Source: a virus. Taken from it: a stretch of 24,847 nt of DNA. The position numbers and the translations under genes were made by a program. The notes under the pieces were generated by a model, which worked only from the letters and a program-made list of their open reading frames with translations, made no database searches and was not told the DNA's origin. Shown one piece after another: positions 1-23,657 of the stretch. How positions within the stretch are numbered: position 1 is the stretch's first letter; every line of letters begins with the position of its first letter. The stretch covers positions 1 through 24,847 of IMG/VR virus record IMGVR_UViG_3300010354_000607; one strand, written 5' to 3'.

Positions 1-1
1 A

Positions 2-2980
2 GAGGTAAATGACACATTAGCAATTAAAGCAGGCGTTGGAATTGCTATTACACAAAATTCTAGTAATGAATTAGAAATTTATGCTTCGGGCGGAGCAGGC
101 ACACAAAATACATTTGCCTCTGTTAATGAAATTAGCGCGTTATACCCAAACGAGAATTTAGATATTGTTGGTGAAAATGGAATAACTGTTGAAACACAAC
201 AAGATCAAACTTTTGAAATAGGCCAACCTTTTAGCACACAAGTTTCTATTCATGCACCAAATAGTTTTGGTGTTTTTGAATTTACAACAGATAATACTGA
301 TCAAGAACAATTTACAATAGAATCTGCAACATCAAATAGTACATTTGTATTTAATGCAGGTGTTGGAATTCGATTTGACAGAGACACAAACGATGTCGTC
401 ACAATTACTGCAACAGGCGATGCCCAACCAGCAAATCGCAGTGTAGATAATGCACAGTTAGCATTGATGACTGCAAACTCAGTAAAGGTAAGTAATGCAT
501 TTGGAGAACCAACTAATTTACAGATTCCAGATGAAGGTATTATAGGTCGTTTTAGAGATGATTATAATAATTTAAGTAATATAATTTCTTTAACACCAAG
601 CGATATAAGAAAATTAATAGATGCTGCAGATGAAGGAACTTTAGAAGAAAATCAAAATGCATTTTCTGCTGTAGAAGTTGAATACAATTCAAATGTAAAT
701 CTAATAGAAGCCACACAAAAAACAGATACGATCAGATTCAAAGCGGGAACTGGTATAGTTTTACAAGGCGAAGAACAAACTGATGGCGATAAAATTGTAA
801 CAGTATCTCTAAACAGTGCATATTTTACATCATATGTCTCTGGATTTACAACTGTTCATTTACCAGATCATACATTTACTTCTGGTACAACTGGCTCAAT
901 CTTAACTTTCTCTGAAACTTCTACAATTTTACCACATACAGTAAATACAAACAACACTGATGTCGGTTTTAATATTAAACCATCCTCCATAACAAATTAT
1001 TATATGGCAGATATGCCTTTTAATAGTATTAAAGGCAACAATGATAATACAGATGGTAGTGTAACGGATATTGAAATACAAGAAAATAATTTATTCGGTA
1101 GACCAACTGGTGGATTTATAAAATCATTAACTGGTGCAGAAGCAAGAACTATATTAGGACTAACTTCAAGTGTTTATTATAAATCTGCATCAATTAATTA
1201 TAGTGGAATTACTACACAATTACCAGCAACTACTGGAAACGAAACTCTTAAATTTGTTGCAGGAACAAACATCCAATTAAGCACAAATGCAGCAAATCAA
1301 ATAGTAATTTCTGCACAAGGCGGAACCCAACAATATGGAGTAAAAGAAGTAAGAATCAATAATGAGTCTTCATCATTTCCAAATGTTCTTTCTATATCAT
1401 CACCAACTTTAGTAGGAAGCACAACATATAAAAATATAGCGTTGTCTAAGACTTACGATTCTCTAACCAATACTTATTCTTTAAGTATTGATTTAGGTGC
1501 AATGCCTGCAAATTCTGTAAAAATTGCATCAACAACTCTAAAGGACAGTGTTGCTGGAAATTATTTGCCCACAAATCTAGTATTAGGCACTAATTCAGTT
1601 GTTGGTAGATTCGGCGGAAACGTTACATCAATTCCATTAAATCTATTAACAGGATTTTTAGGAATTAAAACATTCAATAAAATTGAATTTGATAATGTTG
1701 TAACACCAACACCATCGTCTTCATCAAGCACAAGTTCTTCATCCGGAGCATTGAGTTCTTCCTCTGGTGCACTGAGCAGTTCATCTTCTGGAGGAACTTC
1801 ATCTTCATCTGCTGCTGCTCTTGTTGCAAATAGCGGTTCAACCACTGCTCAAACACTGAATAGCAAATTCAAGTTAATAGGCACTAAGGGAGTTGTAATA
1901 ACTGGTACAAATTTAGATGGTATCTATGGGACACCAACCTTCACATTTAGTGCTGAAATGGATAGTTTATTTGCAGATAAGACACCAAAATTAGGTGGAA
2001 ATTTAGATATGAATGGATACGCAATAGTATCAAATTCTTCTCTATATTTTAAGAACAATTCAAAAAATGCTATTACAATAAATGGTAATACTGGTTACAA
2101 TACAACACTTAATTTAACTGCAGGTGTAGATTATTCTGAAATAAGCGTAAGTAAATTTGCTGGATTTACTACTGTTGGCAATTTAAAATTAACTCCTGCA
2201 GGAAGCAGTTCAGTAATTATTACGAATGGTAAATTAACATCGGATACTTCTGATATGTCAATCACTGCTAATGATAGAATAATCATTGCTTCTAGAAATG
2301 GCAGCACGGCAAGAATAAGCACATCACAAAACATGGTTATGACTTCTCTGTATTCTATAGGGTTTAAGATAGATTCGGTTCTGTCTTCTGGTATAAACGA
2401 TTTGGCCATAACCAAACCCGCCGCAGATGAAGTTATGTTATCTTCTTACAATAATTTAAATTTAGTATTTGCAGCAAATACGACAGGCGGAGTTTCTGAT
2501 AAAAACATAATTTTTAAAGGAAATGTAAAATTTGATGTAAATTACAATATAATATCGGATGTAAATATTGTTGGCACATTAAAATTGAAAACAGATCCAG
2601 AAGCAAGTTTACCAACAGTTGTTGGAGAAGCCCTTCTAAATAGAGGCGGTGTACTAACTCCAGTAAATACAACTAGCTATGTAATAGATTCTTTCAACAC
2701 TGCATATACTGGTTTAGTGTACAATGTGGTAATTACAGACAATTCAAATAATACAATTAAAAAATTATATACAATTAAAATATTAAATAGCGGAACAGGT
2801 GATATGCAAATTTTAACAACAAACGATCTATCATCTATACCAGCAAAAAATAATATAGAAATTAATAGATTATCATTTGCTTGCATATATACTAGTGGAA
2901 TAGGGTCAGTTCTGACTCTAGAAAATATTACACTAGGCAAACGATATTCAGTGAGTTTCTCTAAAGTCTCATTTAATTAA
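2..2980 (+). CDS. Modular tail-fibre-like structural protein, 5' end outside window
   Basis: The reading frame is open from base 2 through the first ATG at 464 to the stop at 2980, so the gene begins before the window and at least 992 residues are visible. The protein is built of recurring fibre modules. Four copies follow the pattern AGxGI-x-n-NxIxIxAxG (around bases 32-90, 355-415, 740-810 and 1258-1320). Three copies follow (I/F/V)GR-x-n-LT-x-n-LG (around 535-615, 1092-1163 and 1600-1665). A TPKLGGNLDMNGY motif follows near 1982-2020. A poly-Ser/Ala/Gly linker splits it at 1715-1810. Such modules are common in tail fibres of marine T4-like phages, and receptor binding is inferred only. It lies 10 nt upstream of the next gene. 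No enzymatic motif is seen. Confidence 0.75.
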   Translation, partial: EVNDTLAIKAGVGIAITQNSSNELEIYASGGAGTQNTFASVNEISALYPNENLDIVGENGITVETQQDQTFEIGQPFSTQVSIHAPNSFGVFEFTTDNTDQEQFTIESATSNSTFVFNAGVGIRFDRDTNDVVTITATGDAQPANRSVDNAQLALMTANSVKVSNAFGEPTNLQIPDEGIIGRFRDDYNNLSNIISLTPSDIRKLIDAADEGTLEENQNAFSAVEVEYNSNVNLIEATQKTDTIRFKAGTGIVLQGEEQTDGDKIVTVSLNSAYFTSYVSGFTTVHLPDHTFTSGTTGSILTFSETSTILPHTVNTNNTDVGFNIKPSSITNYYMADMPFNSIKGNNDNTDGSVTDIEIQENNLFGRPTGGFIKSLTGAEARTILGLTSSVYYKSASINYSGITTQLPATTGNETLKFVAGTNIQLSTNAANQIVISAQGGTQQYGVKEVRINNESSSFPNVLSISSPTLVGSTTYKNIALSKTYDSLTNTYSLSIDLGAMPANSVKIASTTLKDSVAGNYLPTNLVLGTNSVVGRFGGNVTSIPLNLLTGFLGIKTFNKIEFDNVVTPTPSSSSSTSSSSGALSSSSGALSSSSSGGTSSSSAAALVANSGSTTAQTLNSKFKLIGTKGVVITGTNLDGIYGTPTFTFSAEMDSLFADKTPKLGGNLDMNGYAIVSNSSLYFKNNSKNAITINGNTGYNTTLNLTAGVDYSEISVSKFAGFTTVGNLKLTPAGSSSVIITNGKLTSDTSDMSITANDRIIIASRNGSTARISTSQNMVMTSLYSIGFKIDSVLSSGINDLAITKPAADEVMLSSYNNLNLVFAANTTGGVSDKNIIFKGNVKFDVNYNIISDVNIVGTLKLKTDPEASLPTVVGEALLNRGGVLTPVNTTSYVIDSFNTAYTGLVYNVVITDNSNNTIKKLYTIKILNSGTGDMQILTTNDLSSIPAKNNIEINRLSFACIYTSGIGSVLTLENITLGKRYSVSFSKVSFN
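1715..1810 (+). repeat. Poly-serine linker coding tract in fibre gene
   Basis: Low-complexity codons for runs of Ser broken by Thr, Gly-Ala-Leu and Gly-Gly-Thr. The tract mixes TCT, TCA, TCC, TCG, AGT and AGC codons, so the amino-acid bias rather than a simple DNA repeat seems to be selected. It separates the N-terminal module repeats from the C-terminal fibre part. Confidence 0.8.
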
Positions 2981-2990
2981 TGGAGGATAT

Positions 2991-3344
2991 ATGAAAGTTA
3001 AGTTGAGTGATGTTTATGTTTCAGTTCCAGTATTAACAAAAGTATTAGATCTGGAATTACCTGTAACAGTTTCTTATAAATTCATGAAGTTAGTAAATAA
3101 TCTAAATGAAGAATTAAAGGGAATTGAAGAACAAAGAGTAAAACTAGTAAAGAAATATAGCACAGATGACAATCCGGCTACAGTTTCTGATACTAAAAAG
3201 GAAGAATTCTTAGCAGAATTTACCAGCCTTTTAAACGAAGAAATTGGCATAAATTGGGAAAAATTAACTCTAGAGAAGTTAGGCGATAGTCTAAAACTCA
3301 GCCCCAATGAATTAAATAAAGTATCTTATCTGTTTTCTGAATAA
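2991..3344 (+). CDS. Small protein of unknown function upstream of gp13
   Basis: A 117-residue soluble protein with no signal peptide or membrane segment. The start is supported by a GGAGGA Shine-Dalgarno directly before the ATG and a 10-nt gap after the fibre gene. The N-terminal part reads as a short beta or mixed segment followed by an LPVxVSYKFxKL helix. A charged coiled-coil-like stretch with an EExRVKLVKKY motif follows (about residues 35-57), then a Glu/Leu-rich C-terminal half ending in a LTLEKLGDxLKLSP-type motif. This layout resembles a family of about 120-150-aa phage proteins of unknown role, some labelled DUF1617-like. That link is from memory and not tested. No function is assigned. 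It probably belongs to the fibre gene's transcript. Confidence 0.75.
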   Translation: MKVKLSDVYVSVPVLTKVLDLELPVTVSYKFMKLVNNLNEELKGIEEQRVKLVKKYSTDDNPATVSDTKKEEFLAEFTSLLNEEIGINWEKLTLEKLGDSLKLSPNELNKVSYLFSE

Positions 3345-3389
3345 ATTTAAATCTCCTTATATATAAATATTATATAAGGAGAATTAAAT
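3345..3389 (+). promoter_or_regulatory. Long inverted repeat masking gp13 RBS and start codon
   Basis: A perfect 12-bp stem pairs 3352-3363 with 3371-3382 around a 7-nt loop. After one A-A mismatch (3351/3383) six more pairs join 3345-3350 to 3384-3389, giving 18 of 19 paired positions. The 3' arm contains the AAGGAG ribosome-binding site (3376-3381) and the first two bases of the gp13 ATG. A late promoter core lies across the apex, so RNA started there would lack the 5' arm. The pairing is read directly; the regulatory role is inferred from T4 precedents. Confidence 0.75.
3362..3369 (+). promoter_or_regulatory. T4-type late promoter core before gp13
   Basis: Exact TATAAATA, the T4 late-promoter core recognised by gp55-type sigma factors. 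It lies 26 nt before the gp13 ATG, which predicts a leader of about 13 nt. It sits in the loop and inner stem of the inverted repeat that covers the gp13 start. Confidence 0.7.
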
Positions 3390-4203
3390 GAGGCCAAACA
3401 GCAGACAAGAACTTAAAGATTACTGTCTTAGAAGGCTAGGATACCCTGTAATACAAATCAACGTAGACGATTCTCAAATTGAGGATCGCCTTGATGATGC
3501 TCTGCAATATTTTTCAGAATATCATTTTGATGGTGTAGAAAGAGTATACCTAAGAAAACAGATTACCCAAGCAGACCGAGATAGAGGGTACATCGATCTC
3601 AAAGAGCCAGTAACAGAAGATACAGCGAACAAAATAAAAGCAGCACCAGCACTAGATCCTGATGGCAGATCTATTGTTAGTGTTGTTCGCTGTTATCAGC
3701 TATTCGATACATTAGGTGGTACAGGCATGTTTGATGCTCGCTATCAAATTGCATTAAACGATTTATACGGCTTAAGAACAAATACATATAGCGATAGTTT
3801 AATCTCCTATGATTTAACTCGTAGACACATGCAGATGTTACAAGATATGTTAACTCCAGAAAAATCTGTAGAATTTAGTCGTGTAACAAACAGAATTTAT
3901 GTAAACATGGATTGGAAACAACAAGTTACTCTTGGCGAGTATATGATGTTTGAGGCATATAAAATTTTAGATCCAAACATGTATACTGAAATCTATAATG
4001 ATTGGCTTCTTAAAAAATATTGTACGGCAATAATTAAATTTCAATGGGGACAGAACCTTTCAAAATATGCAGGTGTGGCTTTACCCGGAGGAGTAACTAT
4101 GGATGCTAGTACAATTATGACAGAAGCTCGCCAAGAAATGCAACAAATAGAAGAACAAATTCAAAGCAAATACGAACTACCTCCAAACTTTATGGTAGGA
4201 TAA
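3388..4203 (+). CDS. 13: Neck / head completion protein gp13
   Basis: A 271-residue protein recognised as the T4 gp13 family, which with gp14 closes the packaged head and forms the neck for tail joining. The N-terminal block is typical: RQELKDYCLRRLG, then NVDDSQIEDRLDDALQYF and FDGVERVYL (about residues 5-55). An aromatic-rich middle follows, and the C-terminus is a Gln/Glu-rich helix (about 245-265). T4 gp13 is somewhat longer (about 309 aa), and this shorter size suits marine T4-like phages. The AAGGAG site at 3376-3381 fits this ATG. gp14 follows 3 nt after the stop. The leader is unusual because the RBS and start lie in a long inverted repeat that also contains the late promoter. Confidence 0.9.
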   Translation: MRPNSRQELKDYCLRRLGYPVIQINVDDSQIEDRLDDALQYFSEYHFDGVERVYLRKQITQADRDRGYIDLKEPVTEDTANKIKAAPALDPDGRSIVSVVRCYQLFDTLGGTGMFDARYQIALNDLYGLRTNTYSDSLISYDLTRRHMQMLQDMLTPEKSVEFSRVTNRIYVNMDWKQQVTLGEYMMFEAYKILDPNMYTEIYNDWLLKKYCTAIIKFQWGQNLSKYAGVALPGGVTMDASTIMTEARQEMQQIEEQIQSKYELPPNFMVG

Positions 4204-4206
4204 TAA

Positions 4207-4899
4207 ATGGCAACAAATCCCTTTGTAAATAATGTATCCTATAAACCAACACAAGATCTGTTAGAAGATCTTGCCATTGAATCTATAAAAATGTATGGAC
4301 TAGATGTTTATTATTTACCAAGAAGATTCAAAAAGAAAAATGCTATTTTTGGAGAAGATCCATTATCTTACTTTAAAGATCATTTCAAAATAGAAGTATT
4401 TGTTGAAAATGCAACCGCATTTGAAGGTGAAGGAATGTTACTTGGAAAATTTGGTGTAGAAGTACAACAAAATATAACACTAACAGTTTCTAGAAAAAGA
4501 TTTGCCGAAGAAGCAACAAAATTACCAACATTTACAGATAGGCCGACACAATTAACAGCACCAATGGTTGGTGATTTATTTTATTTTCCATTAACAAAAG
4601 CATTATTTGAAATTAAGTATATAGATCCTCACCATGTTTATTTTCAACAAGGAAAATTATATACCTATTCAGTAAATTGTGAACTCTTCAAATACTCTAT
4701 GGAAGAACTCAATACTGGTAATACTGAAATTGATAGTATTGAAACAGCAATCGTTGGTGAATTTGGTACGGATACAGATCCAGATGGCAAATATATCAAG
4801 GATATCAAAACAGAAGATGATAATGATGAGTTACAATTAGATGCAGATAACATCATAGATTTTACAGAAAAAGATCCATTCTCACAGGGTAATTATTAA
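4207..4899 (+). CDS. 14: Neck protein gp14
   Basis: A 230-residue homologue of T4 gp14, the partner of gp13 at the head-tail connector. Matching features are the NPFVNNVSYK start, the AIESIxMxGxxxYYLPR segment (about residues 23-39), IFGEDPLSYF, the FGVEVQQNxTLTVSRKRF strand block, and the GDLFYFPxTKALFEIxYIDPHHVYFQ core (about 119-144). The C-terminal third is acidic and probably flexible. T4 gp14 is about 256 aa. An AGGA sequence lies just before the ATG, overlapping the end of gp13. The stop codon shares one base with the gp15 start, which suggests translational coupling. Confidence 0.92.
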   Translation: MATNPFVNNVSYKPTQDLLEDLAIESIKMYGLDVYYLPRRFKKKNAIFGEDPLSYFKDHFKIEVFVENATAFEGEGMLLGKFGVEVQQNITLTVSRKRFAEEATKLPTFTDRPTQLTAPMVGDLFYFPLTKALFEIKYIDPHHVYFQQGKLYTYSVNCELFKYSMEELNTGNTEIDSIETAIVGEFGTDTDPDGKYIKDIKTEDDNDELQLDADNIIDFTEKDPFSQGNY

Positions 4900-5564
4900 T
4901 GTTCACAACATTTTATCATTCATTAATACGAAAAACGGTTTCTTCGTTTGGAACATTATTTAACAACATTTATGTTGAGAGGCCAGATACTGCTTCTAAT
5001 AAAGTTCAAAAGATAAAAGTTCCTCTTACATATTCGTCTAAAGAAAGAATGTTTCAGAGGTTGAATATTGGTCCCGATATGGATCAAGCATATTCTACAC
5101 AAATAGTTTTACCAAGATTATCTTTTAATATAACAGGTATACAATATGATGCAGAAAGAAAAAGAAATTTAATACAAAAAAGATTTGCCGTAAAACCAGA
5201 CGAAACTGTTCAATATCATTTTAGTGAAGTGCCATATAATGTTCAATTTTCTGTTTATTGTTATGTCAGAAATGTTGACGATGGTTTACAAATTGTAGAG
5301 CAGATTCTTCCATATTTTAATCCCCAATTTAATATAACAATTAAACCCGGAATATTATCAGACACAAATGAAAGATTAGATATACCTATAGTTTTAGGGC
5401 AGATTATACCAACCGAAAACTATGAAGGTCTTATGAAAGACGATGCACATAGAATATTGACTTGGGAATTACAATTTACTGCTAAAATGCAAATTTATGG
5501 TCCAGTTAGAAATAGCGGTCTTATACAAAATGCAGACATCAACCTATTTGATTGGGAAGAATAA
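4899..5564 (+). CDS. 15: Tail terminator / sheath stabilizer gp15
   Basis: A 221-residue homologue of T4 gp15, the hexameric ring that caps the contracted or extended tail and binds the head neck. Diagnostic matches to T4 gp15 are the FYxSxxR N-terminus, the VPLTYSSKERMFQRLN block (about residues 41-56), VLPRLSFNI, the LSVFxRYxDD-like FSVYCYVRNVDDGLQIVEQILPYFNPQFN region, and a tryptophan near ILTWELQF. It lacks most of the long C-terminal tail of T4 gp15 (272 aa). The start overlaps the gp14 stop by one base. Confidence 0.93.
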   Translation: MFTTFYHSLIRKTVSSFGTLFNNIYVERPDTASNKVQKIKVPLTYSSKERMFQRLNIGPDMDQAYSTQIVLPRLSFNITGIQYDAERKRNLIQKRFAVKPDETVQYHFSEVPYNVQFSVYCYVRNVDDGLQIVEQILPYFNPQFNITIKPGILSDTNERLDIPIVLGQIIPTENYEGLMKDDAHRILTWELQFTAKMQIYGPVRNSGLIQNADINLFDWEE

Positions 5565-5565
5565 T

Positions 5566-5736
5566 ATGTCAAAAAAAGTAGCAAATATTAATATAAAACC
5601 AATAGTTTATGAAAAAGATTCAAATGGAGATTTTGTTATAGATACTAATGGTAATAAAGTAGTAGAGAAAACATATCCAAATGTAAAGTCTACAGATAAT
5701 TATGATTATAAAATTGAAATTACGGAATTTATATGA
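5566..5736 (+). CDS. 56-aa conserved-position small protein between gp15 and gp16
   Basis: A 56-residue Lys/Asp/Asn-rich protein starting MSKKVANINIKP. ATG 5566 is chosen because it lies one base after the gp15 stop; an upstream in-frame ATG at 5497 would run through gp15. The last codons overlap the gp16 start in an ATGA arrangement, so the gene is tightly embedded and probably translated. It holds a DSNGDFVIDTNGNKVVEK hairpin-like stretch, possibly two beta strands. There is no membrane segment or known motif. T4 has no gene here. Function is unknown, and a role with the terminase or tail terminator is only a guess from position. Confidence 0.65.
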   Translation: MSKKVANINIKPIVYEKDSNGDFVIDTNGNKVVEKTYPNVKSTDNYDYKIEITEFI

Positions 5737-6179
5737 ATGAAAAATTGAATGAAATTTTTAACTTAGACAAGCAACCAGAATCTATTGGCGAAATAATAGA
5801 AGCATCAAAGAATGAAATAAAACAAGTATCAAAAGAGTCAGACTTTGATGTAGATTATAGTGCAGTTCGCACAAATCTAAAAGATCTTATTGCAAAAGGA
5901 TCTGCAGCAATTGATGGAATACTACATGTAGCATCTGAAGGAGATTCGCCCAGAGCATACGAAGTTGTAGGCCAACTTATTAAAAGTGTTGCCGACGCAA
6001 ATAAGGATCTTATAGAACTACATAAGAAAATTAAAGAAATAACTGATACATCGGTTACTAATAATAACCAAACTCAAACTAAAATTGATAATGCAATATT
6101 TGTGGGTAGCACTGCCGATTTACAAAAAATGTTGCGGGGTCAATTAGATCAAATAAAGCAACTAGAAAATGGCACATAA
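5733..6179 (+). CDS. 16: Small terminase subunit gp16
   Basis: A 148-residue homologue of T4 gp16, the small terminase ring that recognises concatemeric DNA and stimulates the gp17 ATPase. The central helical hairpin is conserved: DFDVDYSAVRTNLKDLI, then GSAAIDGILHVASEGDSPRAYEVVGQLIKSVADANKDLI (about residues 37-92), which matches the T4 signature PRAFEVxGQLIKTVADxxKDL. A coiled-coil-like region and a Thr/Asn-rich hinge follow. It is slightly shorter than T4 gp16 (164 aa). It overlaps the preceding small gene by 4 nt and gp17 by 11 nt, so the packaging genes look coupled. Confidence 0.92.
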   Translation: MNEKLNEIFNLDKQPESIGEIIEASKNEIKQVSKESDFDVDYSAVRTNLKDLIAKGSAAIDGILHVASEGDSPRAYEVVGQLIKSVADANKDLIELHKKIKEITDTSVTNNNQTQTKIDNAIFVGSTADLQKMLRGQLDQIKQLENGT

Positions 6180-7812
6180 TAAAGATTCCTATCTAGGAAA
6201 CCCAAATTTAAAGAAAACAAATACTCCAGTAAATTTTACTCAGGAGCAAATTGCAGAGTATGCCAGATGCATGAACGATCCGGTATACTTTATGAAAAAT
6301 TATATTAAAATTGTAAATCTTGATCGTGGTTTAATTAATTTTGAGCCATATGAATTTCAAGAAGAAATGATACGAACTATAAAAAATAATCGTTTCGTTA
6401 TTGCTAAAATGCCCCGACAATGTGGAAAATCAACTTGTGTGGTTTCAGATATATGCCATGAAGCACTTTTTAAGCCAAATCAAAATATTGCTATTCTTGC
6501 AAACAAACAGTCTATTGCAAAATTGCACATGGATAGATTAAAAACTGCCTATGAATATTTACCAAAATGGTTACAACAAGGTGTTAAAGAATGGAACAAG
6601 TATTCTGTTGAGTTTGAGAACGGATCTCGCATTATAGCGTCTGCTACTTCGCCTAGTGCTATCCGTGGTGGTTCGTTTAATTATATTCTATTAGATGAGT
6701 TTGCATTCATTCCGGATAATATAGCAGAAGATTTTTATAGTTCCGTGTATCCGACAATTGCATCCGGTTCTACGACTAAACTGGTCATCATATCTACTCC
6801 AAATGGATTAAATTTATATTATAAAATTTGGACGGAAGCAACAGAAAATAGAAGTGATTTTAAGTATGTCGATGTTCATTGGTCTGATGTTCCGGGAAGA
6901 GATGAAAATTGGCGAGATCAACAAGTAAAAAACACAAGTGAAGAACAATTTCGTAAAGAACACGAATGTGAATTTATTGGCAGCACAAATACACTTATTA
7001 ATGCAAATAAATTGCGAAAATTGGTATTTAAAACACCAATTTATCAAAATGATGATGGTCTAAAGGTATATGAAAAACCAATAGTGGTTCCGGGTAAACC
7101 AGAATCAGACCATATGTATGTGATGTCAGTTGATACTTCCAGAGGAGTAGGCCAAGATTACCATGCATTTAATGTTATTGATATTACACAAATGCCCTAT
7201 AAAGTAGTTGCCACATTTAAAAATAATACAATGTCTCCTCTAGTATACCCAAGTGCAATTCTTCCTGTTGCCAAACAATATAACAATGCATATATTCTAG
7301 TAGAAATTAATGATATTGGTGGTCAAGTTGCGGATATTTTGCATAATGAATTTGAATATGAAAATTTACTAGTATCCAGTATACGCGGAAGAAAGGGTCA
7401 AACCTTAGATGGAGGATTTGGCAAAGCAGAGACACAAAGGGGCATACGAACTACAAAGGCTGTAAAGAAGCTAGGATGCTCTGTGTTGAAGAGTATGATT
7501 GAATCCGATAAATTGATTGTTAATGACTATGAAACAATAAGAGAATTGGTGTCATTTATTGCCAAGCGAGACAGTTTTGAGGCTGAAGCAAACTATAACG
7601 ACGATCTTGTTGTGTGTTTGGTATTGTTTGCTTGGTTATCTACACAAAATTATTTTAAAGATTTAACAAATTTAGACATACGCCAAAGTCTATTTAATGA
7701 AAAATTAAAACAATTAGAAGATGAAATGCTTCCTTTAGGATTTTTAGACGATGGAACTAGTTTAGAAAATGAAGGCGAAGTAGACGATGACGGTACGCTC
7801 TGGAAAGCATAA
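6169..7812 (+). CDS. 17: Large terminase subunit gp17 (packaging ATPase-nuclease)
   Basis: A 547-residue packaging motor. The N-terminal ATPase has Walker A PRQCGKST (residues 82-89), Walker B YILLDEF (172-178, with D176 and catalytic E177) and a coupling motif STPNG (209-213). The C-terminal RNase-H-fold nuclease keeps three acidic residues in context: D322 in SVDTSRG, E379 in LVEINDIGG and D478/D479 in NYNDDLV. T4 gp17 is 610 aa, so both domains fit. The start overlaps gp16 by 11 nt with no strong Shine-Dalgarno, which suggests translation coupled to gp16. The C-terminal tail is acidic and may contact the portal or gp16. Confidence 0.96.
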   Translation: MAHNKDSYLGNPNLKKTNTPVNFTQEQIAEYARCMNDPVYFMKNYIKIVNLDRGLINFEPYEFQEEMIRTIKNNRFVIAKMPRQCGKSTCVVSDICHEALFKPNQNIAILANKQSIAKLHMDRLKTAYEYLPKWLQQGVKEWNKYSVEFENGSRIIASATSPSAIRGGSFNYILLDEFAFIPDNIAEDFYSSVYPTIASGSTTKLVIISTPNGLNLYYKIWTEATENRSDFKYVDVHWSDVPGRDENWRDQQVKNTSEEQFRKEHECEFIGSTNTLINANKLRKLVFKTPIYQNDDGLKVYEKPIVVPGKPESDHMYVMSVDTSRGVGQDYHAFNVIDITQMPYKVVATFKNNTMSPLVYPSAILPVAKQYNNAYILVEINDIGGQVADILHNEFEYENLLVSSIRGRKGQTLDGGFGKAETQRGIRTTKAVKKLGCSVLKSMIESDKLIVNDYETIRELVSFIAKRDSFEAEANYNDDLVVCLVLFAWLSTQNYFKDLTNLDIRQSLFNEKLKQLEDEMLPLGFLDDGTSLENEGEVDDDGTLWKA

Positions 7813-7832
7813 AAATTAAAAATTTGTAAAAA

Positions 7833-7845
7833 TATACATACTGAT
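7833..7845 (+). promoter_or_regulatory. Possible degenerate late promoter before gp18
   Basis: TATACATACTGAT matches 10 of 13 positions of the T4 late consensus TATAAATACTATT. It lies in the 109-nt gap between gp17 and gp18, the longest non-coding gap in the window. It would give an unusually long gp18 leader of about 75 nt. No exact TATAAATA is in this gap, so the call is tentative. Confidence 0.3.
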
Positions 7846-7921
7846 AGAAAAAATAGTGTAATTTGAGAATATCTGTCTTCATAATGTTAAAAATTCAGAA
7901 GAATCCAAGGAGACATAAAAA

Positions 7922-9643
7922 ATGGCATTCCAATTGAGCCCCGGAGTAAACATAACAGAAAAAGACATTACTTTAATTGTACCTGCAGTAGCAACAACCC
8001 CAGGTGGCATGGTATCACCATTCCAATGGGGTCCAGCAGAGGAAGTTAATTTAATTGACAATGAAAGAACCCTTGTTCAAACATTTAGCACACCAAGAGA
8101 CACAGACTATTATTCAAAATTCTGGTACTGTGCATCAAATTTCTTGGCTTACGGCAATAACCTAAAGGTTGTACGTGCAGTAACCGCTGCAGATTTAAAT
8201 GCCGTCAGCACTGGTGCTGGTGTTCAAATTAAAAATCTCCAAACTTATACCACAAGCGGTGCCACTTTATTAAGTGGTAAAGGTCCTTGGGCCGCTAAAT
8301 ATCCAGGAGATCTCGGTAACAGCCTAAAGGTTGTAGTTCTCGACTCTGCTTCTAGCGATAACTATGGCGAAACAAGTGGAACAGAAGATTATGCAGATTG
8401 GATGGACAACTTTGATAACGTTCCATCAACATCAACATATGCAGAAAGTTTAGGTCTCTCAGGTATTAATGATGAAATTCACATACTAGTAATTGATAAA
8501 GACGGTAAGTGGACAGGTACTCCCGGAACAATATTAGAAAAATATGCATTCTTATCCAAAGCCAGCAATGGTATTAAATCTGATGGCACAAGCAACTACT
8601 ACAAAACAGTTATAAACAATGAATCAAAATATATCTGGTGGGTAAGCCATCCCCAAAGCAAAACATGGGGTACAGAATTAACTCCAACTGCAGCAGCATT
8701 CCCAGTATTAAGTGGATCAATCCAAATTAATTCACTAGTAAATGGTGCAAATCACACATCAATTTCTGATGCTGCAATTGCTGCACTATATAACACATAC
8801 TTTGGTGACCCAGATGAAATCGATGTTTCATTCTTCATCGCCGGTCCACTAGAGGCATCTGCTGCTAAAGAAGTGATTGAAACTGCAGAACAACGAAAAG
8901 ATTGTATTGCTTTCGTATCTGCAACAACTGTAGATGCAACGGACACAATTCAAACCAAACTAACAGACGCACTAACATATAGAACAGATCTCCAAATCTC
9001 TTCTTCATATGGCGTAATGGATAGTGGCAATAAATTACAATACGACAGATATAATGACGTATATCGTTACATCCCATTATGTGCTGACGTTGCTGGATGC
9101 TGCGTAAGAACAGATCAAGATAGAGATCCTTGGTTCTCTCCAGCCGGTGCAGATAGAGGTAGAATTTTAAATGCAGTTCGTTTAGCATATAATCCTCCAA
9201 AGGCACACAGAGACGAATTATACAAGAAGGGAATCAACCCAGTAGTATCTTTCGAAGGGGCTGGCCCAATTCTCTTTGGTGATAGAACACTATTATCTAA
9301 GCCAAGTGCTTTTGATAGAATCAATGTAAGAAGACTCTTCATTGTTCTAGAGAAGGCAATTGCAACTGCTGCCAGAAACATTCTCTTTGAATTTAATGAT
9401 GAATTTACTCGTTCACAATTTAAATTATTAGTTGAACCATATTTAACAAATGTAAAGGCAAGAAGAGGCATTACAGACTTTAAGGTTGTTTGCGATGAAA
9501 CAAATAATACAGGTCAAGTAATTGACAGTAATAATTTTGTTGCTGATATTTACATTAAACCAAATCGTTCAATTAACTTTATACAACTTAATTTTATCGC
9601 AACTCCAACTGGATTATCTTTCGAAGAAGTCACAGGATTCTGA
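7922..9643 (+). CDS. 18: Contractile tail sheath protein gp18
   Basis: A 573-residue tail sheath subunit. The N-terminus LSPGVNITEKD, then PFQWGPAEEV, and the NFLAYGNNLKVVRAV block (about residues 75-90) follow T4 gp18 closely. The C-terminal half is also diagnostic: QYDRYNDVYRYIPLCADVAG, CVRTDQDRDPWFSPAGxxRG, FDRINVRRLF, EFNDEFTRSQF and the SINFIQLNFIATPTGLSFEE end. It is shorter than T4 gp18 (659 aa), with a reduced variable middle domain. A strong AAGGAG site lies before the ATG. Use of AAG, GGT and CCA looks more biased than in the fibre genes, as expected for an abundant virion protein. Confidence 0.96.
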   Translation: MAFQLSPGVNITEKDITLIVPAVATTPGGMVSPFQWGPAEEVNLIDNERTLVQTFSTPRDTDYYSKFWYCASNFLAYGNNLKVVRAVTAADLNAVSTGAGVQIKNLQTYTTSGATLLSGKGPWAAKYPGDLGNSLKVVVLDSASSDNYGETSGTEDYADWMDNFDNVPSTSTYAESLGLSGINDEIHILVIDKDGKWTGTPGTILEKYAFLSKASNGIKSDGTSNYYKTVINNESKYIWWVSHPQSKTWGTELTPTAAAFPVLSGSIQINSLVNGANHTSISDAAIAALYNTYFGDPDEIDVSFFIAGPLEASAAKEVIETAEQRKDCIAFVSATTVDATDTIQTKLTDALTYRTDLQISSSYGVMDSGNKLQYDRYNDVYRYIPLCADVAGCCVRTDQDRDPWFSPAGADRGRILNAVRLAYNPPKAHRDELYKKGINPVVSFEGAGPILFGDRTLLSKPSAFDRINVRRLFIVLEKAIATAARNILFEFNDEFTRSQFKLLVEPYLTNVKARRGITDFKVVCDETNNTGQVIDSNNFVADIYIKPNRSINFIQLNFIATPTGLSFEEVTGF

Positions 9644-9651
9644 TATAAATA
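9644..9651 (+). promoter_or_regulatory. T4-type late promoter core before gp19
   Basis: Exact TATAAATA starting in the base after the gp18 TGA stop and 26 nt before the gp19 ATG. The spacing equals that at gp13, predicting a leader of about 13 nt holding the AGAGGA ribosome-binding site. Confidence 0.75.
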
Positions 9652-9669
9652 GTAAAGAGGAAAAAACAA

Positions 9670-10227
9670 ATGACAGATATTTCTAAATTTATCAATAGAT
9701 TCGATGGTGGCGCAAGACCAAATCTTTTTAAGGTAACCTTCACAGGTGTACCAACTGGTAATCTAGATGCAGATACTCTTCAAGTTTATTGCAAGGCTGC
9801 TCAAGTTCCAGCAACTACATTAGGTGCTATTCCAGTAAATTTTATGGGTCGTATAGTACAAATACCCGGCGATAGAACCTTTGAAGATTGGACAGTTACA
9901 GTAATAAACGATGAAGCCATGACCAACAGAAGATTCTTTGAACAATGGAACGCATGGTTCAATGGACATCTAACAAATGTTGGACAAGGAAATGGTCAGT
10001 CGCATATTGACGCTCTATCTCAAGCAACAGCAGTTGTTGAACAATTAGATAGACAACACAAGACACAAAGAGCATATACATTAAAGCACGTATGGTGCGA
10101 AAATGTACAAGCATATGATGTGTCTTACAATGATAATGATACAGTTTCTGAATTCCAAGTAACATTTAAATATCACGGACTTTCTGTAGGCGATGCACCA
10201 AGTGCAAACTCTGCAGAGTTAGGATAA
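9670..10227 (+). CDS. 19: Tail tube protein gp19
   Basis: A 185-residue homologue of T4 gp19 (163 aa), the subunit of the inner tube through which DNA passes. Family features are the N-terminal FINRFDGGARPNLFKVTF strand, the YCKAAQVPATTLG segment (about residues 36-48), the FMGRIVQIPGDRTFEDWTVTVINDE block (about 58-82), the RRFFEQWNAW helix, and a C-terminal EFQVTFKYHG strand. It follows gp18 as in T4 and has its own late promoter, consistent with the need for many copies. The extra length relative to T4 is at the C-terminus and around residues 100-125. Confidence 0.94.
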   Translation: MTDISKFINRFDGGARPNLFKVTFTGVPTGNLDADTLQVYCKAAQVPATTLGAIPVNFMGRIVQIPGDRTFEDWTVTVINDEAMTNRRFFEQWNAWFNGHLTNVGQGNGQSHIDALSQATAVVEQLDRQHKTQRAYTLKHVWCENVQAYDVSYNDNDTVSEFQVTFKYHGLSVGDAPSANSAELG

Positions 10228-15649: not shown

Positions 15650-18600
15650 ATGGAATATTCAATTTATAAAATAAAAGAAATACTTTGTGTGGAAGGATTT
15701 TACTCAACATCATTAGGAATGAGTACTTCATCTGTAAGCACAAGTTCTAGTAGTGGTATAAGTATTTCATCAAGTTCCTCTAGATCAAGTTCTTCAACAT
15801 CATCGGTTTCGTCTTCTAGTAGTGTTTCTTCTAGTAGTGTTTCTTCTAGTAGTGTTTCTTCTAGTAGTCCATCATTTCCTTCTGTTGCATTTTTAGGTGA
15901 TAGTGGAAATGGACCAGATTTAGTTGATGAGGTTGCCGTAGTAAATGCAATAAAAACAAAAAATCCAAATTTAGTATTTCATTTAGGAGATGCAAATTAC
16001 CAAAATTCTGATATTGTGTCTGATCTTCAATTAAAAATAAATACTAATTTTTTAAATTTATGGGGATCTACATGGTTATCTAAAATGTATATCGCATATG
16101 GTAATCACGATTTAGACAATTCTGTTGATTATGGATTGCATGTAGCAAATAATTTACCTCTGGTAAAAACAGCAATAGGAACAACAAATTTAAATACTAG
16201 AAAATTGTGTTATGATTTTGTTTTTCAGGGAATTCATTTTTTTGTTATGAATAGTGGAAATACTGCATCTGGAGATGGATTAGACTCGACCCAAGATGAC
16301 AAATTACAATGGCAAGCACAAATAGATTTTATTAGACCAAAAATAGTTGCATCTACTGCTACTTGGAAAATTTTAGTTGTACATAAAGCACCTTGGACAA
16401 ATGGAACATCACATCCATCAGTAACAACTACAAGACTTTTTGGTTCAAATTCTCATCAATCTTTAGGTATAGATTTTGTATTGAGTGCACATTCACATGT
16501 TTATGATCATATTATAAAAAATAATGTTCATTACATAGTTCAGGGATTGGGAGGAACATCTAAACACGGATTGTCTTCCACACCACAAACAGGAACAGTT
16601 ATTTCATATAATCAAAAATATGCATATACAATTTTAACAAAAACTACTGCAACTTGTTTAGACTTTACTACCTATGACGTTGATGGACAAATTATAGAAT
16701 CTTTTCAATTATGTAAAACCCCCAGTAGTTCATCTAGCAGCAGCGTTTCGTCTTCATCTAGCAGCAGCGGAGTTTGTACAACTTGTACATCTGCAGAATT
16801 TATAACAGCAGCATTTCCAACGTCAGGAACGCCAAATGGTATTAATTTTCATCTATTAGATGCAACACCCAATTATTGCACTTCTCCTACAGAATACTCT
16901 TTTACAGTTGATCCAAGTAGACCTGCAGATCCTACTGTTGGAAGATATCAAACTGGGTGTGTTGAAAAAATATTTGCATTACAAAATTGGCAAAATTTAA
17001 ATGGCTTTAAACTAAAATTTAATGGATTTGATGCAGCAGATAAAATTCATTATTATAATTATAATTTTACTACTCGTGTAGCAACACCAATAGGCACATT
17101 GGGTACAAATGATATTATAATCGGCAGTGGTCAAAATGTAGAATTGATTATAGATTATACAACAATGTCACCACCATATCCAAATGCTTTTTATATTAAT
17201 AAAAAACCTTCTGGAATAGCACCTGATACTAATCCTGTTTATAAATGTACACAATGGAAAACTGGACTAGTAGCAAATTCTTGTATTCCAAAACCATCTA
17301 GTAGTTCGTCCTCTTCTTCGTCTTCACAAGCATCTACTTCTAGCAGCATAGGAAGCACAAGCAGTTCGTCTAGTAGTGTGAGTTCTTCTAGCACATCAAG
17401 CACTATAGGAAATTCTTATTATACTTGTGCAGTTGCAGATAATCCTATTGAATGTACTGTGCTGAATTCTGGTTTATATTGTTCTGCTGCAGGAGCCTGT
17501 AATAGTTGGGAAGGGTCAGAACGCACAGTAAACAATGTTTCTGGATCCAGAACACTTGTTCATGGCTTAGAGGAAAGATTCAGTTCTTTTAGTGAAATAC
17601 GAGGAGTAATAAGGCAAGTAGCAGCAGACGTTGGCGCATGTAAAGTGCGAATTTCATTGCGCCAATGGGACGGAGATGGAAATTTAAAAACTATATTTAA
17701 AGGTTGGGAAATATCTTCTGAAAATTCTGCTAGTTCTAGTTCTAGTTCTACTTTGTACAATGAAACAGGAGGAACAGGTTCTTGTGAATATAATATAGAT
17801 TATGAACAAGATCAAACAAATGCACCATCCAGAACAGAAATAAGTTTTAATAGAACAGTAGATTCTTGTGGTTTTGCTGGTGTGGGTTCAGTAGATAGAT
17901 TTGGTTGGCAAATAGAATTTATAAATTGTAGTAATAGCGTTGTTCAATATGAGTTTGAAAATGAAGGATATTCTATCTGTTATTCTTTTTTAAGTACTTT
18001 AGCACAAGCATGTAGAGAAAGTAGTAATATTTTAGATCCAAATTATGGTGGAATGGGTGGGTATGTTGGTGCATGGGCATTTTTTAATACAGAATGTTGT
18101 GATCCAGTATCATGTACCGGCGGCACAACATTTTCTTGTAGAGGAAATGCTGGATCGGGCTTACCTCGCAGCACCTTCAATTGGGTTCAATATTGGATTG
18201 ACATCTTATGTACAGAGCCTCCAATATGTGGTGATGGTTCACTGTATGGTTGCAATAGTGTATTTGGTGGTACAGGCGATACAATGAATCCTCTGTGTAA
18301 ACCATATTTAAGAAATCATATCTGGAGACCTTTACAGCACACATTTACCGATATACTTGATATAGGTCTGTGTGAAATTGGAGCATGGCCTGTTCACCAA
18401 GGCCAAGATCTTTGTGATCCAATAATTTTAGTTTTTGATTGGGAAAGATTTTTAACATGCAGTTCAGATGGAAATATACCACAAAGAACAGAAAGAAGAG
18501 GCCCCGGAGAAGCAAATATAAAATGGCTTTGGGACACTAATCGAATTTTAGATAAAAATTTAAATCCAAGAAGCTCTTCTGCTCAACAACTATACGCAAA

Positions 18601-19132
18601 ACTCATAAACCAAGCATCTCCATATTGGGAAATGGAAACTGATTTATATCAAGAATTCAGTACTTGTGCAGCATATCAATGCTCCTTTGCATCTGGGTAT
18701 CAATCTGAAGGAATGTTTTATAATTTTTGGAAAGATCCAGATTTTAATATAAAATATTACATAACATTTGATATTAATTATTTAACCACTAGTCCACATT
18801 ATTACGATAAACTTAGATTACAACAATTTCCGTTAAATTTTAATGGAAATGGAGAAAGATGCAAATATGACAATGGATCTTACATTTCATATGCAAATAT
18901 AGAGACAAATTCAATATATTTGAATGATTTAAAGGAAAGTGGTGCAGGAAATTCTGGAGTATGTAAAAATGATTTTATATTTTATCCAAATGCTATGAAT
19001 AATATTGATACAATCAATATTGATTCTAGATGTGATATGGGGCTAGTAGTAAAACCCACATATTCATTTTTTCCTTGGGTAATGAATACATTTAGAATAA
19101 ATCCAGATTCTATTAGAATTATTGAAATTTAA
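15650..19132 (+). CDS. Ser-linker virion protein with purple-acid-phosphatase-type phosphoesterase domain
   Basis: An 1160-residue multidomain protein. After a short N-terminal segment (1-22) and a Ser tract (about 25-75), residues 78-355 form a calcineurin-like metallophosphoesterase. All five purple-acid-phosphatase-type motifs are present: GDSG (D84), GDANY (D114, Y117), GNHD (N152, H153), VVHK (H245) and AHSH (H281, H283). A dinuclear-metal phosphatase or phosphodiesterase is expected, and catalysis is plausible since no ligand is missing. Further Ser linkers at about 359-373 and 549-585 separate a Cys-containing beta-rich domain (375-547) from a large Cys-rich C-terminal half with no motif I recognise. 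It has its own late promoter. A virion surface location is inferred. Substrate is unknown: host surface phosphate esters, teichoic or lipid phosphates, or nutrient release are alternatives. Confidence 0.82.
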   Translation: MEYSIYKIKEILCVEGFYSTSLGMSTSSVSTSSSSGISISSSSSRSSSSTSSVSSSSSVSSSSVSSSSVSSSSPSFPSVAFLGDSGNGPDLVDEVAVVNAIKTKNPNLVFHLGDANYQNSDIVSDLQLKINTNFLNLWGSTWLSKMYIAYGNHDLDNSVDYGLHVANNLPLVKTAIGTTNLNTRKLCYDFVFQGIHFFVMNSGNTASGDGLDSTQDDKLQWQAQIDFIRPKIVASTATWKILVVHKAPWTNGTSHPSVTTTRLFGSNSHQSLGIDFVLSAHSHVYDHIIKNNVHYIVQGLGGTSKHGLSSTPQTGTVISYNQKYAYTILTKTTATCLDFTTYDVDGQIIESFQLCKTPSSSSSSSVSSSSSSSGVCTTCTSAEFITAAFPTSGTPNGINFHLLDATPNYCTSPTEYSFTVDPSRPADPTVGRYQTGCVEKIFALQNWQNLNGFKLKFNGFDAADKIHYYNYNFTTRVATPIGTLGTNDIIIGSGQNVELIIDYTTMSPPYPNAFYINKKPSGIAPDTNPVYKCTQWKTGLVANSCIPKPSSSSSSSSSSQASTSSSIGSTSSSSSSVSSSSTSSTIGNSYYTCAVADNPIECTVLNSGLYCSAAGACNSWEGSERTVNNVSGSRTLVHGLEERFSSFSEIRGVIRQVAADVGACKVRISLRQWDGDGNLKTIFKGWEISSENSASSSSSSTLYNETGGTGSCEYNIDYEQDQTNAPSRTEISFNRTVDSCGFAGVGSVDRFGWQIEFINCSNSVVQYEFENEGYSICYSFLSTLAQACRESSNILDPNYGGMGGYVGAWAFFNTECCDPVSCTGGTTFSCRGNAGSGLPRSTFNWVQYWIDILCTEPPICGDGSLYGCNSVFGGTGDTMNPLCKPYLRNHIWRPLQHTFTDILDIGLCEIGAWPVHQGQDLCDPIILVFDWERFLTCSSDGNIPQRTERRGPGEANIKWLWDTNRILDKNLNPRSSSAQQLYAKLINQASPYWEMETDLYQEFSTCAAYQCSFASGYQSEGMFYNFWKDPDFNIKYYITFDINYLTTSPHYYDKLRLQQFPLNFNGNGERCKYDNGSYISYANIETNSIYLNDLKESGAGNSGVCKNDFIFYPNAMNNIDTINIDSRCDMGLVVKPTYSFFPWVMNTFRINPDSIRIIEI
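15812..15868 (+). repeat. 15-bp tandem repeat in N-terminal Ser linker
   Basis: Three perfect consecutive copies of the 15-mer GTTTCTTCTAGTAGT (15824-15838, 15839-15853, 15854-15868), preceded by its last 12 bases at 15812-15823. Each unit encodes VSSSS, so gain or loss keeps the reading frame. It lies immediately before the phosphoesterase domain. Confidence 0.9.
16729..16769 (+). repeat. 17-bp direct repeat in second Ser linker
   Basis: TTCATCTAGCAGCAGCG occurs at 16729-16745 and again at 16753-16769, 7 nt apart, a period of 24 nt (8 codons). It encodes part of the SSSSSSSV linker following the phosphoesterase domain. Confidence 0.8.
17294..17404 (+). repeat. Third Ser/Thr linker coding tract
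   Basis: About 37 codons rich in Ser and Thr with Ile-Gly breaks (SIGS, TIGN). It separates the middle beta-rich domain from the Cys-rich C-terminal half of the 1160-aa protein. The DNA is low in complexity with mixed Ser codons. Confidence 0.75.
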
Positions 19133-22103: not shown

Positions 22104-23597
22104 ATGGACCCCCGTAATCAAATGTTAACAGAATCAGTAAGACAAAAATGGGACGCTATCGTAAATCACGAAGCACTTCCCGAAATTAAGGATAGTTACC
22201 GCAAGACAGTAACCACCATTCTACTTGAGAACCAAGAGAATGCTCTTCTCACAGAGAACGGCGTTCTAGGTACAAGTTTAGGTAACGTTGGTGGTGGCTC
22301 AGGCTCAACAACTGGTATCGATGCTTTCGATCCAATTCTAATCAGCCTAGTTCGTCGTAGCATGCCAAATCTAATGGCCTATGATATCGCTGGCGTTCAA
22401 CCAATGAATGGCCCAACCGGTCTAATCTTCGCAATGAAGACCAAGTACGGCGGTGCAGATGCTTCAACAGGTTCACGCGGTAACAGCGAGGCTCTATTCA
22501 ATGAAGCCGACAGCGGTTACTCTGGCAAGAACACAATCACCAAGAACACAAACCAAACTGGTGCAAATAACCAAGCCGCAGGTAGCAACAGCTATCACGC
22601 AGGTAACATGGGCGATATGTTTGCTGGTGATGTTGGTGGTGGCTCCGATGGTTCATTCGAAGCCGGTACAGGTATGCCAACAACCACTGCTGAAACTCTA
22701 GGTTCAACTGGTAATGCATTTAATCAAATGTCATTCACCATTGAGAAGACTTCTGTAACTGCTCGTAGCCGTGCTCTAAAGGCCGAGTACACCACAGAAC
22801 TCGCTCAAGACCTCAAGGCAGTACACGGACTTGATGCCGAGACAGAACTTGCAAACATTCTTTCAACAGAAATTATGTTTGAAATCAACCGTGAACTAGT
22901 AAGAACAATTTACCAAATTGCTCGTCTAGGTTGCCAACAAAGCGATCTAAACGGCAAGCAAGCTGGTAAGGGTCTAAACGGCAATGCAGGCGGTGGCGTA
23001 TACGATCTAGAACTAGACTCTGATGGCCGTTGGTCAGCCGAGAAGTTCCGTGGTCTAACTTTCCAACTCGAAAGAGAAGCCAACGTAATCGGTGCAGAAA
23101 CCCGTCGTGGCAAGGCAAACTTCGCAATCGTTTCACCAGACGTTGGTGCAGCACTAAGCATGAGCGGTCTACTAGACTTCAGCCCAGCTTTCAGTGGTGG
23201 AATCAACACTGATGTAAATGGTAACAGCTTTGCTGGTACACTACACCAAGGCAGAATTAAGGTCTACATCGATCCATATTCAATGCCAACACAATATGCC
23301 AACTTCACACCAGTAAACTACGTTTGCGTAGGTTACAAGGGAACAAGCCCATACGACGCTGGTGTATTCTACTGCCCATACGTTCCACTACAAATGGTAA
23401 GAGCTGTTGATACCAGCACTTTCCAACCCAAGATTGGATTCAAGACCCGCTACGGCATGGTCAGCAATCCATTCGTCACAACAAGCGTTGGTGGATACAC
23501 TCCAGACGGCGAGCAACTAACACCAAGAGTCAACCAATACTACCGCATCTTCCGCGTAGACAACCTACACGGTAATGACGCTAGCTACGGTGGCTGA
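22104..23597 (+). CDS. 23: Major capsid protein gp23
   Basis: A 497-residue major capsid protein. The N-terminal propeptide has several gp21-type sites of the form (L/I)xE: LTE10, LPE27, LLE42 and LTE51. Cleavage after E51 would give a mature chain of about 446 residues. The marine T4-type core is clear: GIDAFDPILISLVRRSMPNLMAYDIAGVQPMNGPTG in pieces from about residue 72, later TSVTARSRALKAEYTTELAQDLKAVHGLDAE, and the C-terminal FQPKIGFKTRYGMVSNPF block. Codon use differs sharply from the accessory genes: AAG is preferred to AAA, and CGT/CGC and GGC/GGT are common. This fits very high expression. It has its own late promoter, a strong RBS and a strong terminator. Confidence 0.97.
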   Translation: MDPRNQMLTESVRQKWDAIVNHEALPEIKDSYRKTVTTILLENQENALLTENGVLGTSLGNVGGGSGSTTGIDAFDPILISLVRRSMPNLMAYDIAGVQPMNGPTGLIFAMKTKYGGADASTGSRGNSEALFNEADSGYSGKNTITKNTNQTGANNQAAGSNSYHAGNMGDMFAGDVGGGSDGSFEAGTGMPTTTAETLGSTGNAFNQMSFTIEKTSVTARSRALKAEYTTELAQDLKAVHGLDAETELANILSTEIMFEINRELVRTIYQIARLGCQQSDLNGKQAGKGLNGNAGGGVYDLELDSDGRWSAEKFRGLTFQLEREANVIGAETRRGKANFAIVSPDVGAALSMSGLLDFSPAFSGGINTDVNGNSFAGTLHQGRIKVYIDPYSMPTQYANFTPVNYVCVGYKGTSPYDAGVFYCPYVPLQMVRAVDTSTFQPKIGFKTRYGMVSNPFVTTSVGGYTPDGEQLTPRVNQYYRIFRVDNLHGNDASYGG

Positions 23598-23623
23598 TAG
23601 AGTTAGTTAAGGGGATTCATTTG

Positions 23624-23657
23624 CAAGGGCGGCTAGAAATAGCCGCCCTTGTCTTTT
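23624..23657 (+). terminator. Intrinsic terminator after gp23
   Basis: A perfect 11-bp stem, CAAGGGCGGCT (23624-23634) with AGCCGCCCTTG (23641-23651), around a 6-nt loop AGAAAT. It is followed by TCTTTT. It stands 26 nt after the capsid stop and is the strongest classical terminator I can see in the window. Confidence 0.92.

Follow-up and report, generated by a model that had tools for sequence, protein, structure and literature searches.

The window (i.e., the whole 24,847-base stretch of viral DNA analysed here) encodes on its + strand a homologue of the neck protein gp13 (head-tail adaptor Ad2; 3388..4203, 271 aa; phrog_211, E 6.6e-40), followed by homologues of gp14 (4207-4899, + strand; phrog_460/679), gp15 (4899-5564, + strand; phrog_227), and terminase. 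Directly upstream, on the same strand, lies a 117-aa ORF (2991..3344) of phrog_1401, a family that assigns it no function, and before this the 3′ part of a long + strand ORF (2..2980), which is open at the left end of the window and without a family match. This long ORF is the likely source of read-through RNA into gp13. An earlier note on this DNA had spoken of read-through from the fibre gene; its expectation that such RNA would be closed at gp13 agrees with the folds described below, but the next gene upstream is the 117-aa ORF, and the fibre identity of the long ORF is unproven since its listed part (464-2980) drew no PHROG or Pfam match.

Across eight contigs (the window and those of seven relatives), the ORF directly 5′ of gp13 is in every case 115-118 aa long and similar at its start. 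Large same-strand ORFs are located 5′ of this small ORF in the contigs examined, with gp6- and gp25-like baseplate homologues farther upstream in seven of the eight and a gp8-like homologue in three; in two contigs, a late-promoter motif precedes an ORF of 1956 or 1959 aa situated 11-14 kb upstream of gp13. The genes upstream of gp13 form a co-directional, probably morphogenetic cluster, and RNA reading through from them into gp13 would therefore probably be late mRNA.

The hairpin at the gp13 start and its embedded late promoter

Directly 3′ of the TAA of the upstream ORF, intergenic sequence forms the 5′ arm of a hairpin (3345..3363, + strand; ATTTAAATCTCCTTATATA), which pairs with the Shine-Dalgarno sequence (SD) of gp13. 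The 3′ arm (3371..3389, + strand; TATATAAGGAGAATTAAAT) holds this SD, AAGGAG (3376..3381, + strand), as well as the AT of the start codon (ATG at 3388), with both elements paired in the stem. The arms match at 18 of their 19 positions and enclose an apical loop of 7 nt (3364..3370, + strand), as given by both the fold and the inverted-repeat search. A T4-type late promoter, TATAAATA (3362..3369, + strand), covers the final two positions of the 5′ arm together with most of the loop. In T4, late transcription starts approximately one helical turn downstream of the TATA box (excerpts of PMC2988020); by analogy, the late start of gp13 would fall at 3374..3376 (+ strand), and the entire switch would take up only ~45 bases.

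Both this stem, with its buried AAGGAG and AT of the ATG, and the placement of TATAAATA at its apex had been described in the earlier note, and the inverted-repeat search returned the same pairing at the same coordinates. No other inverted repeat matching at 16 or more of 19 positions, with a loop of 3-15 nt, occurs anywhere in the 24,847-base window. The note had also proposed comparing the fold of the read-through RNA with that of RNA started at the promoter: RNA spanning 3300-3420 is predicted to fold at -30.2 kcal/mol against a shuffle mean of -13.0 (z -6.56; 0 of 200 shuffles as low), whereas in RNA beginning at 3375 the stem is absent and 17 of 200 shuffles fold equally well or better (z -1.66). 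A search of the window against Rfam gave no match above the gathering score. A sigma-70 scan of positions 1-10000 returned 34 matches, below the shuffle mean of 50.2, and was set aside as uninformative.

The promoter motif TATAAATA occurs seven times in the window against 4.3 expected, a number reached by 15 of 100 shuffles; the count by itself is weak evidence. All seven copies lie on the + strand, each shortly 5′ of an SD-bearing ORF. T4-type late transcription is likely in these phages, since homologues of gp55, gp33, and gp45 were found (in 5/8, 3/8, and 4/8 contigs, respectively, the contigs being incomplete). In cyanophage, NATAAATA has been reported as a late promoter (excerpts of PMC2984593). 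Truncation of the RNA at the predicted start shifts the opening cost of the start region by 0.1-1.1 kcal/mol for the six other late promoters of the window, versus 18.4 for gp13, which bears out the earlier remark that none of the others has such a structure. Elsewhere in the window, a 1160-aa ORF (15650-19132) situated among structural genes has a late-promoter motif of its own, and residues 79-285 of its product form a calcineurin-like phosphoesterase domain (PF00149); a very stable fold, perhaps a terminator, is present at the end of the major capsid gene (23581-23650; 75-nt windows to -31.3 kcal/mol).

Conservation and covariation in the gp13 clade

A protein search of IMG/VR yielded 80 loci, and four further gp13 scans starting from other members widened the set to 330 loci (including 14 named records), of which 328 had a gp13 match and 323 a usable start with a leader of at least 70 nt, corresponding to 160 distinct leaders. 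Selection was by gp13 homology, with structure not used. In the gp13 protein tree of these 160, the clade of the window is one starred branch of 47 rows (SH-aLRT 99), comprising 47 distinct leaders that all come from viral contigs, with no isolate among them.

Every one of the 47 leaders has an SD-bearing 3′ arm and a T4-late-type promoter in or beside the hairpin loop, the promoter core being [TC]ATAAATA in 44 and a CTAAATA-type variant in the remaining three. A strict test, i.e., a late-promoter core, z < -2.5, at least 6 pairs across the predicted start, and at least 4 start-region bases paired upstream, was passed by 43 of the 46 clade leaders at or above 55% gp13 identity. The three exceptions (L022, L048, and L070) fail on z alone (-2.05, -2.36, and -1.54, respectively) and display the same type of stem; they were counted as hairpins by judgement. 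In the tree, 46 of the 47 rows were thus scored as having the hairpin; the exception, L071, whose gp13 identity falls slightly short of 55%, did not count as a pass, although a 10-pair stem is clearly visible in its fold.

When the register is anchored at the GG of the SD, Watson-Crick pairs make up 450 of 515 cells, the remainder being 23 G-U, 10 A-C, and 32 other combinations. At positions 2-5, which lie inward of the SD and outside it, all four Watson-Crick types are used, and 162 of 181 cells are paired when each phage keeps its own arms; swapping arms between phages lowers pairing to 47.4% (sd 3.7; maximum 64% in 2000 shuffles), and sliding the partner register by 1-3 positions gives 43-52%. 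Parsimony on the gp13 tree assigns to positions 1-5 a total of 25 two-sided pair-keeping changes, 4 one-sided changes, and 16 breaks or mends, the corresponding figures for all 12 positions being 35, 10, and 35; over the full set, breaks or mends thus equal the two-sided pair-keeping changes, which speaks against the lock. Pair breaks are found chiefly near the loop or at the base of the stem, and the SD half is little variable, as expected. The search for compensatory change in related phages that the earlier note had suggested thus returned a hairpin retained, with compensatory changes, in 47 of 47 leaders, and the absence of conserved pairing that the note had named as grounds for refutation was not observed.

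These comparisons bear on two alternatives. In an AT-rich leader, the SD might pair fortuitously with the promoter region, and the window does have a G+C content of 34% and no over-representation of TATAAATA; however, a z of -6.56, a repeat that is the sole one of its kind, and compensated hairpins in 47/47 relatives make chance pairing scarcely credible, and the comparison with relatives refutes it. The dyad could instead act in DNA, i.e., as a palindrome aiding promoter opening or binding a dimeric protein, as its centring on the promoter and its AT-rich apex would allow. Yet such a structure is missing from most of the other late promoters that these phages carry, and a DNA-level role does not account for the SD always being one arm. 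A single protein site is excluded because pairing is conserved and stem sequence is not. Moreover, G-U pairs outnumber A-C pairs (23 vs 10 of 515 cells), a direction that fits sense-strand RNA, in a strand test that is weak because the sequences are related and the register slips in bulged stems. A DNA-level element is thus highly improbable. As judged from this pattern of covariation, the gp13 hairpin is a real RNA structure under selection.

Predicted opening by late transcription and specificity for gp13

In RNA started upstream, the SD and/or AUG is predicted to be paired in the window and in all 47 clade leaders. The opening cost of the gp13 start region in the window falls from 21.2 kcal/mol in the read-through RNA to 2.9 in the late RNA, the medians across the 47 leaders being 17.6 and 3.4 kcal/mol; the drop exceeds 3 kcal/mol in all 47 and 5 kcal/mol in 44, all of these energies being predictions for naked RNA. 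An open site in promoter-started RNA, as the earlier note had anticipated, is therefore predicted throughout the clade. The predicted start lies 12-25 nt before the AUG, and in 47/47 leaders the G/C bases of the stem have their 5′ partners upstream of it. The late RNAs are unevenly open, with the probability of an unpaired SD ranging among clade members from 0.08 (in L067, the late RNA of which retains an opening cost of 6.0 kcal/mol) to 0.99. A ribosome terminating at the abutting upstream stop codon (3342-3344 in the window) could melt part of the stem.

RNA running in from upstream would carry both arms and fold such that the SD (and, in the window, the AT of the AUG) is paired; the paired SD would prevent 30S loading, and no gp13 would be made from the read-through RNA. 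As the late promoter lies at the hairpin apex, RNA initiated at ~3374-3376 would be without the 5′ arm and would begin with a 12-14-nt leader in which the SD is open. With the read-through RNA locked and the late RNA open, gp13 would be translated only from its own late transcripts. We consider such a cis-acting RNA lock very likely.

The hairpin could alternatively be an intrinsic terminator that stops transcription of the upstream cluster, with the late promoter merely lying inside it. This would suit the 10 of 47 clade leaders in which 6 or more of the 9 bases past the last G/C of the stem are T, several of these leaders showing TTTTTTT directly 5′ of the ATG, as well as the promoterless GC-rich hairpin that T4 gene 13 has at the same junction. 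However, 30 of the 47 leaders have 4 T or fewer (3 of 9 in the window) and some have runs of A, a scan of the + strand for terminators does not call the window hairpin, and the SD is inside an arm in every clade member. Termination as the general function is ruled out by the stem tails, too few of which are T-rich, and a terminator is accordingly an unlikely explanation for the hairpin; given the T-run after the stem in 10/47 leaders, termination may add to the lock in those phages. Nuclease processing of RNA is known in general to act on sites of this sort, and the hairpin might be one such site, at which cleavage of the AU-rich loop in the read-through RNA frees the SD so that both RNAs are translated. 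The loop is indeed AU-rich and single-stranded in the fold, but the occurrence of a late promoter at the same place in 47/47 leaders would be left unexplained, and we deem processing distinctly improbable next to translation from late RNA alone.

Specificity was assessed on the window and the contigs of seven relatives (522 kb; G003 was left out), with a site called locked at z < -3 and at least 4 SD bases paired across the start. Among 47 ORF-leading TATAAATA or CATAAATA sites in these eight contigs, gp13 is locked in 8/8 and the others in 2/39; both of the latter are in G004, before a RegA homologue and a 478-aa ORF without clear function. The leaders of the tail tube, scaffold, and capsid genes in the eight contigs have a late promoter without the lock. 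For the 36 sites whose SD spans 4 letters or more, the gain in opening cost is 8.5-18.5 kcal/mol at gp13 (8 sites) and has a median of 0.9 at the others, 3 of 28 of which exceed 5 kcal/mol.

Separately, truncation opens the starts of the 478-aa ORF in G004 (near 49401, - strand) and of a 208-aa ORF in G007 (near 4444) by 6.8 and 12.1 kcal/mol, respectively. In the leaders of RegA homologues (phrog_242, PF01818), a long hairpin extending to the ATG often encloses the late-promoter core, and the test was passed by 17 of the 47 distinct ones (L364-L381 and others examined; G004 near 25789, G007 near 51440). The RegA-leader hairpin could be the same kind of lock or a site of RegA autocontrol.

The proposed purpose of the gp13 lock and comparison with known systems

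Since the read-through RNA is probably late as well, the lock would separate two late modules. Its purpose would be to isolate the neck genes; what it shuts out would probably be late RNA running on from the baseplate/fibre cluster before them and not early RNA, and isolation from any earlier read-through, as in T4, would be a potential additional benefit. The chances seem to us evenly balanced that, in this large T4-like phage clade and separately in several other gp13 lineages, the promoter-in-hairpin arrangement serves as a late-against-late insulator that bars translation of the neck gene off long baseplate/fibre messages. If so, the supply of the head-tail joining protein would be set only by its own late promoter; this would be a means of controlling timing or stoichiometry within the late programme, unlike the early-gene silencing of T4, and one held over deep divergence by compensatory change. 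To our knowledge, RNA structures controlling phage morphogenesis are rarely backed by comparative evidence. The choice of gene is itself informative, as gp13 is locked in every clade member and the tail tube, scaffold, and capsid genes are not; this raises the question of why synthesis of the neck protein should be barred from read-through RNA.

Hairpins with the same logic and a different sequence or geometry occur outside the clade (L136/L154/L155/L171; L222/L224/L229/L237/L243; L311, L342, and L351). A second geometry (L222/L224/L229/L237/L243 and L311) places the promoter over or right next to the base of the 5′ arm, with the predicted start falling within the arm itself; in L229 and L311, the ATG is in addition preceded by a T-run. 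On the gp13 tree, the hairpin label changes 8 times (at least 6 as counted by starred branches), with gains and losses indistinguishable and the figure of 8 about one too many because L071 was counted as lacking the hairpin. One automatic pass, L078, was rescored as negative because its promoter core is no more than CTAAATA and its fold is generic. The lock is absent from 14 of 25 outside-clade leaders with a [TC]ATAAATA promoter, and no hairpin is present in any of the 14 named records examined, including Mosig, HTVC008M, Melnitz-3, P-SSM2, S-SM2, and Cr30. The Pelagibacter phages Mosig and HTVC008M, which are the nearest isolates by gp13 (44%), have the late-promoter motif before gp13 without the hairpin. 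In HTVC008M, the genes upstream of gp13 are oppositely oriented, such that a lock would have no read-through RNA to act on; in Mosig, the upstream genes share the direction of gp13, yet the hairpin is absent, such that restriction of the hairpin to co-directional upstream genes is not a strict rule. That rule was also rejected on the finding that 13 of the 14 unlocked outside-clade promoter leaders appear co-directional upstream.

T4 gene 13 is the same gene in the same place after baseplate/whisker genes, and it too has a hairpin upstream. In T4, however, the 55 nt preceding the ATG contain no late-promoter core, and the GC-rich hairpin lies 5′ of the SD without pairing it, by which T4 gene 13 was ruled out as a member of the lock group. 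This promoterless hairpin sits at the wac/13 junction (NC_000866, just before 93624; in L362), and the junction there may be insulated differently.

For six known T4 cases, the strict test recovered four (e, 49, I-TevII, and segB), with the stems of soc and I-TevI falling below threshold. T4 genes 51 and inh also pass the promoter-in-hairpin test (z -3.76 and -3.33; leaders L360-L363), and the leaders of 53, segE, and 4 fold comparably, although at a weaker z; genes 51, inh, 53, and 4 are absent from the published lists of such genes as they appear in excerpts of PMC3014915 and PMC2988022. That the same scan finds RegA leaders and further T4 genes suggests that this T4 device is commoner than the classic list.

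The T4 precedents invoked in the earlier note (e, soc, 49, and I-TevI) are all documented in excerpts of PMC3014915. In long transcripts of T4 e, the SD and/or AUG is paired in a structure that reduces lysozyme synthesis ~100-fold, and the late promoter, TATAAATA, lies within the region encoding the 5′ strand, which late transcripts are without (excerpts of PMC3014915). A late or nearby promoter with an SD-sequestering hairpin is likewise described for T4 soc, 49, I-TevI/II/III, and segB and for Aeh1 mobE (excerpts of PMC3014915 and PMC2988022). These are mostly homing endonuclease or accessory genes in early/middle units, and none is a neck gene. No hairpin-embedded late promoter at gene 13 or at a neck gene was found in the open-access literature searched; as far as that search extends, the promoter-in-hairpin lock is new for gp13 and its clade, and the kind is known from T4. 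The gp13 lock has the same anatomy as that of T4 e (z -4.69 in our test), although the genes are not homologous: e functions in lysis and is entered by long transcripts made early, whereas gp13 is a structural gene within a co-directional, probably morphogenetic cluster, and the RNA reading into it is probably late mRNA, unlike the early RNA that enters e and I-TevI in T4.
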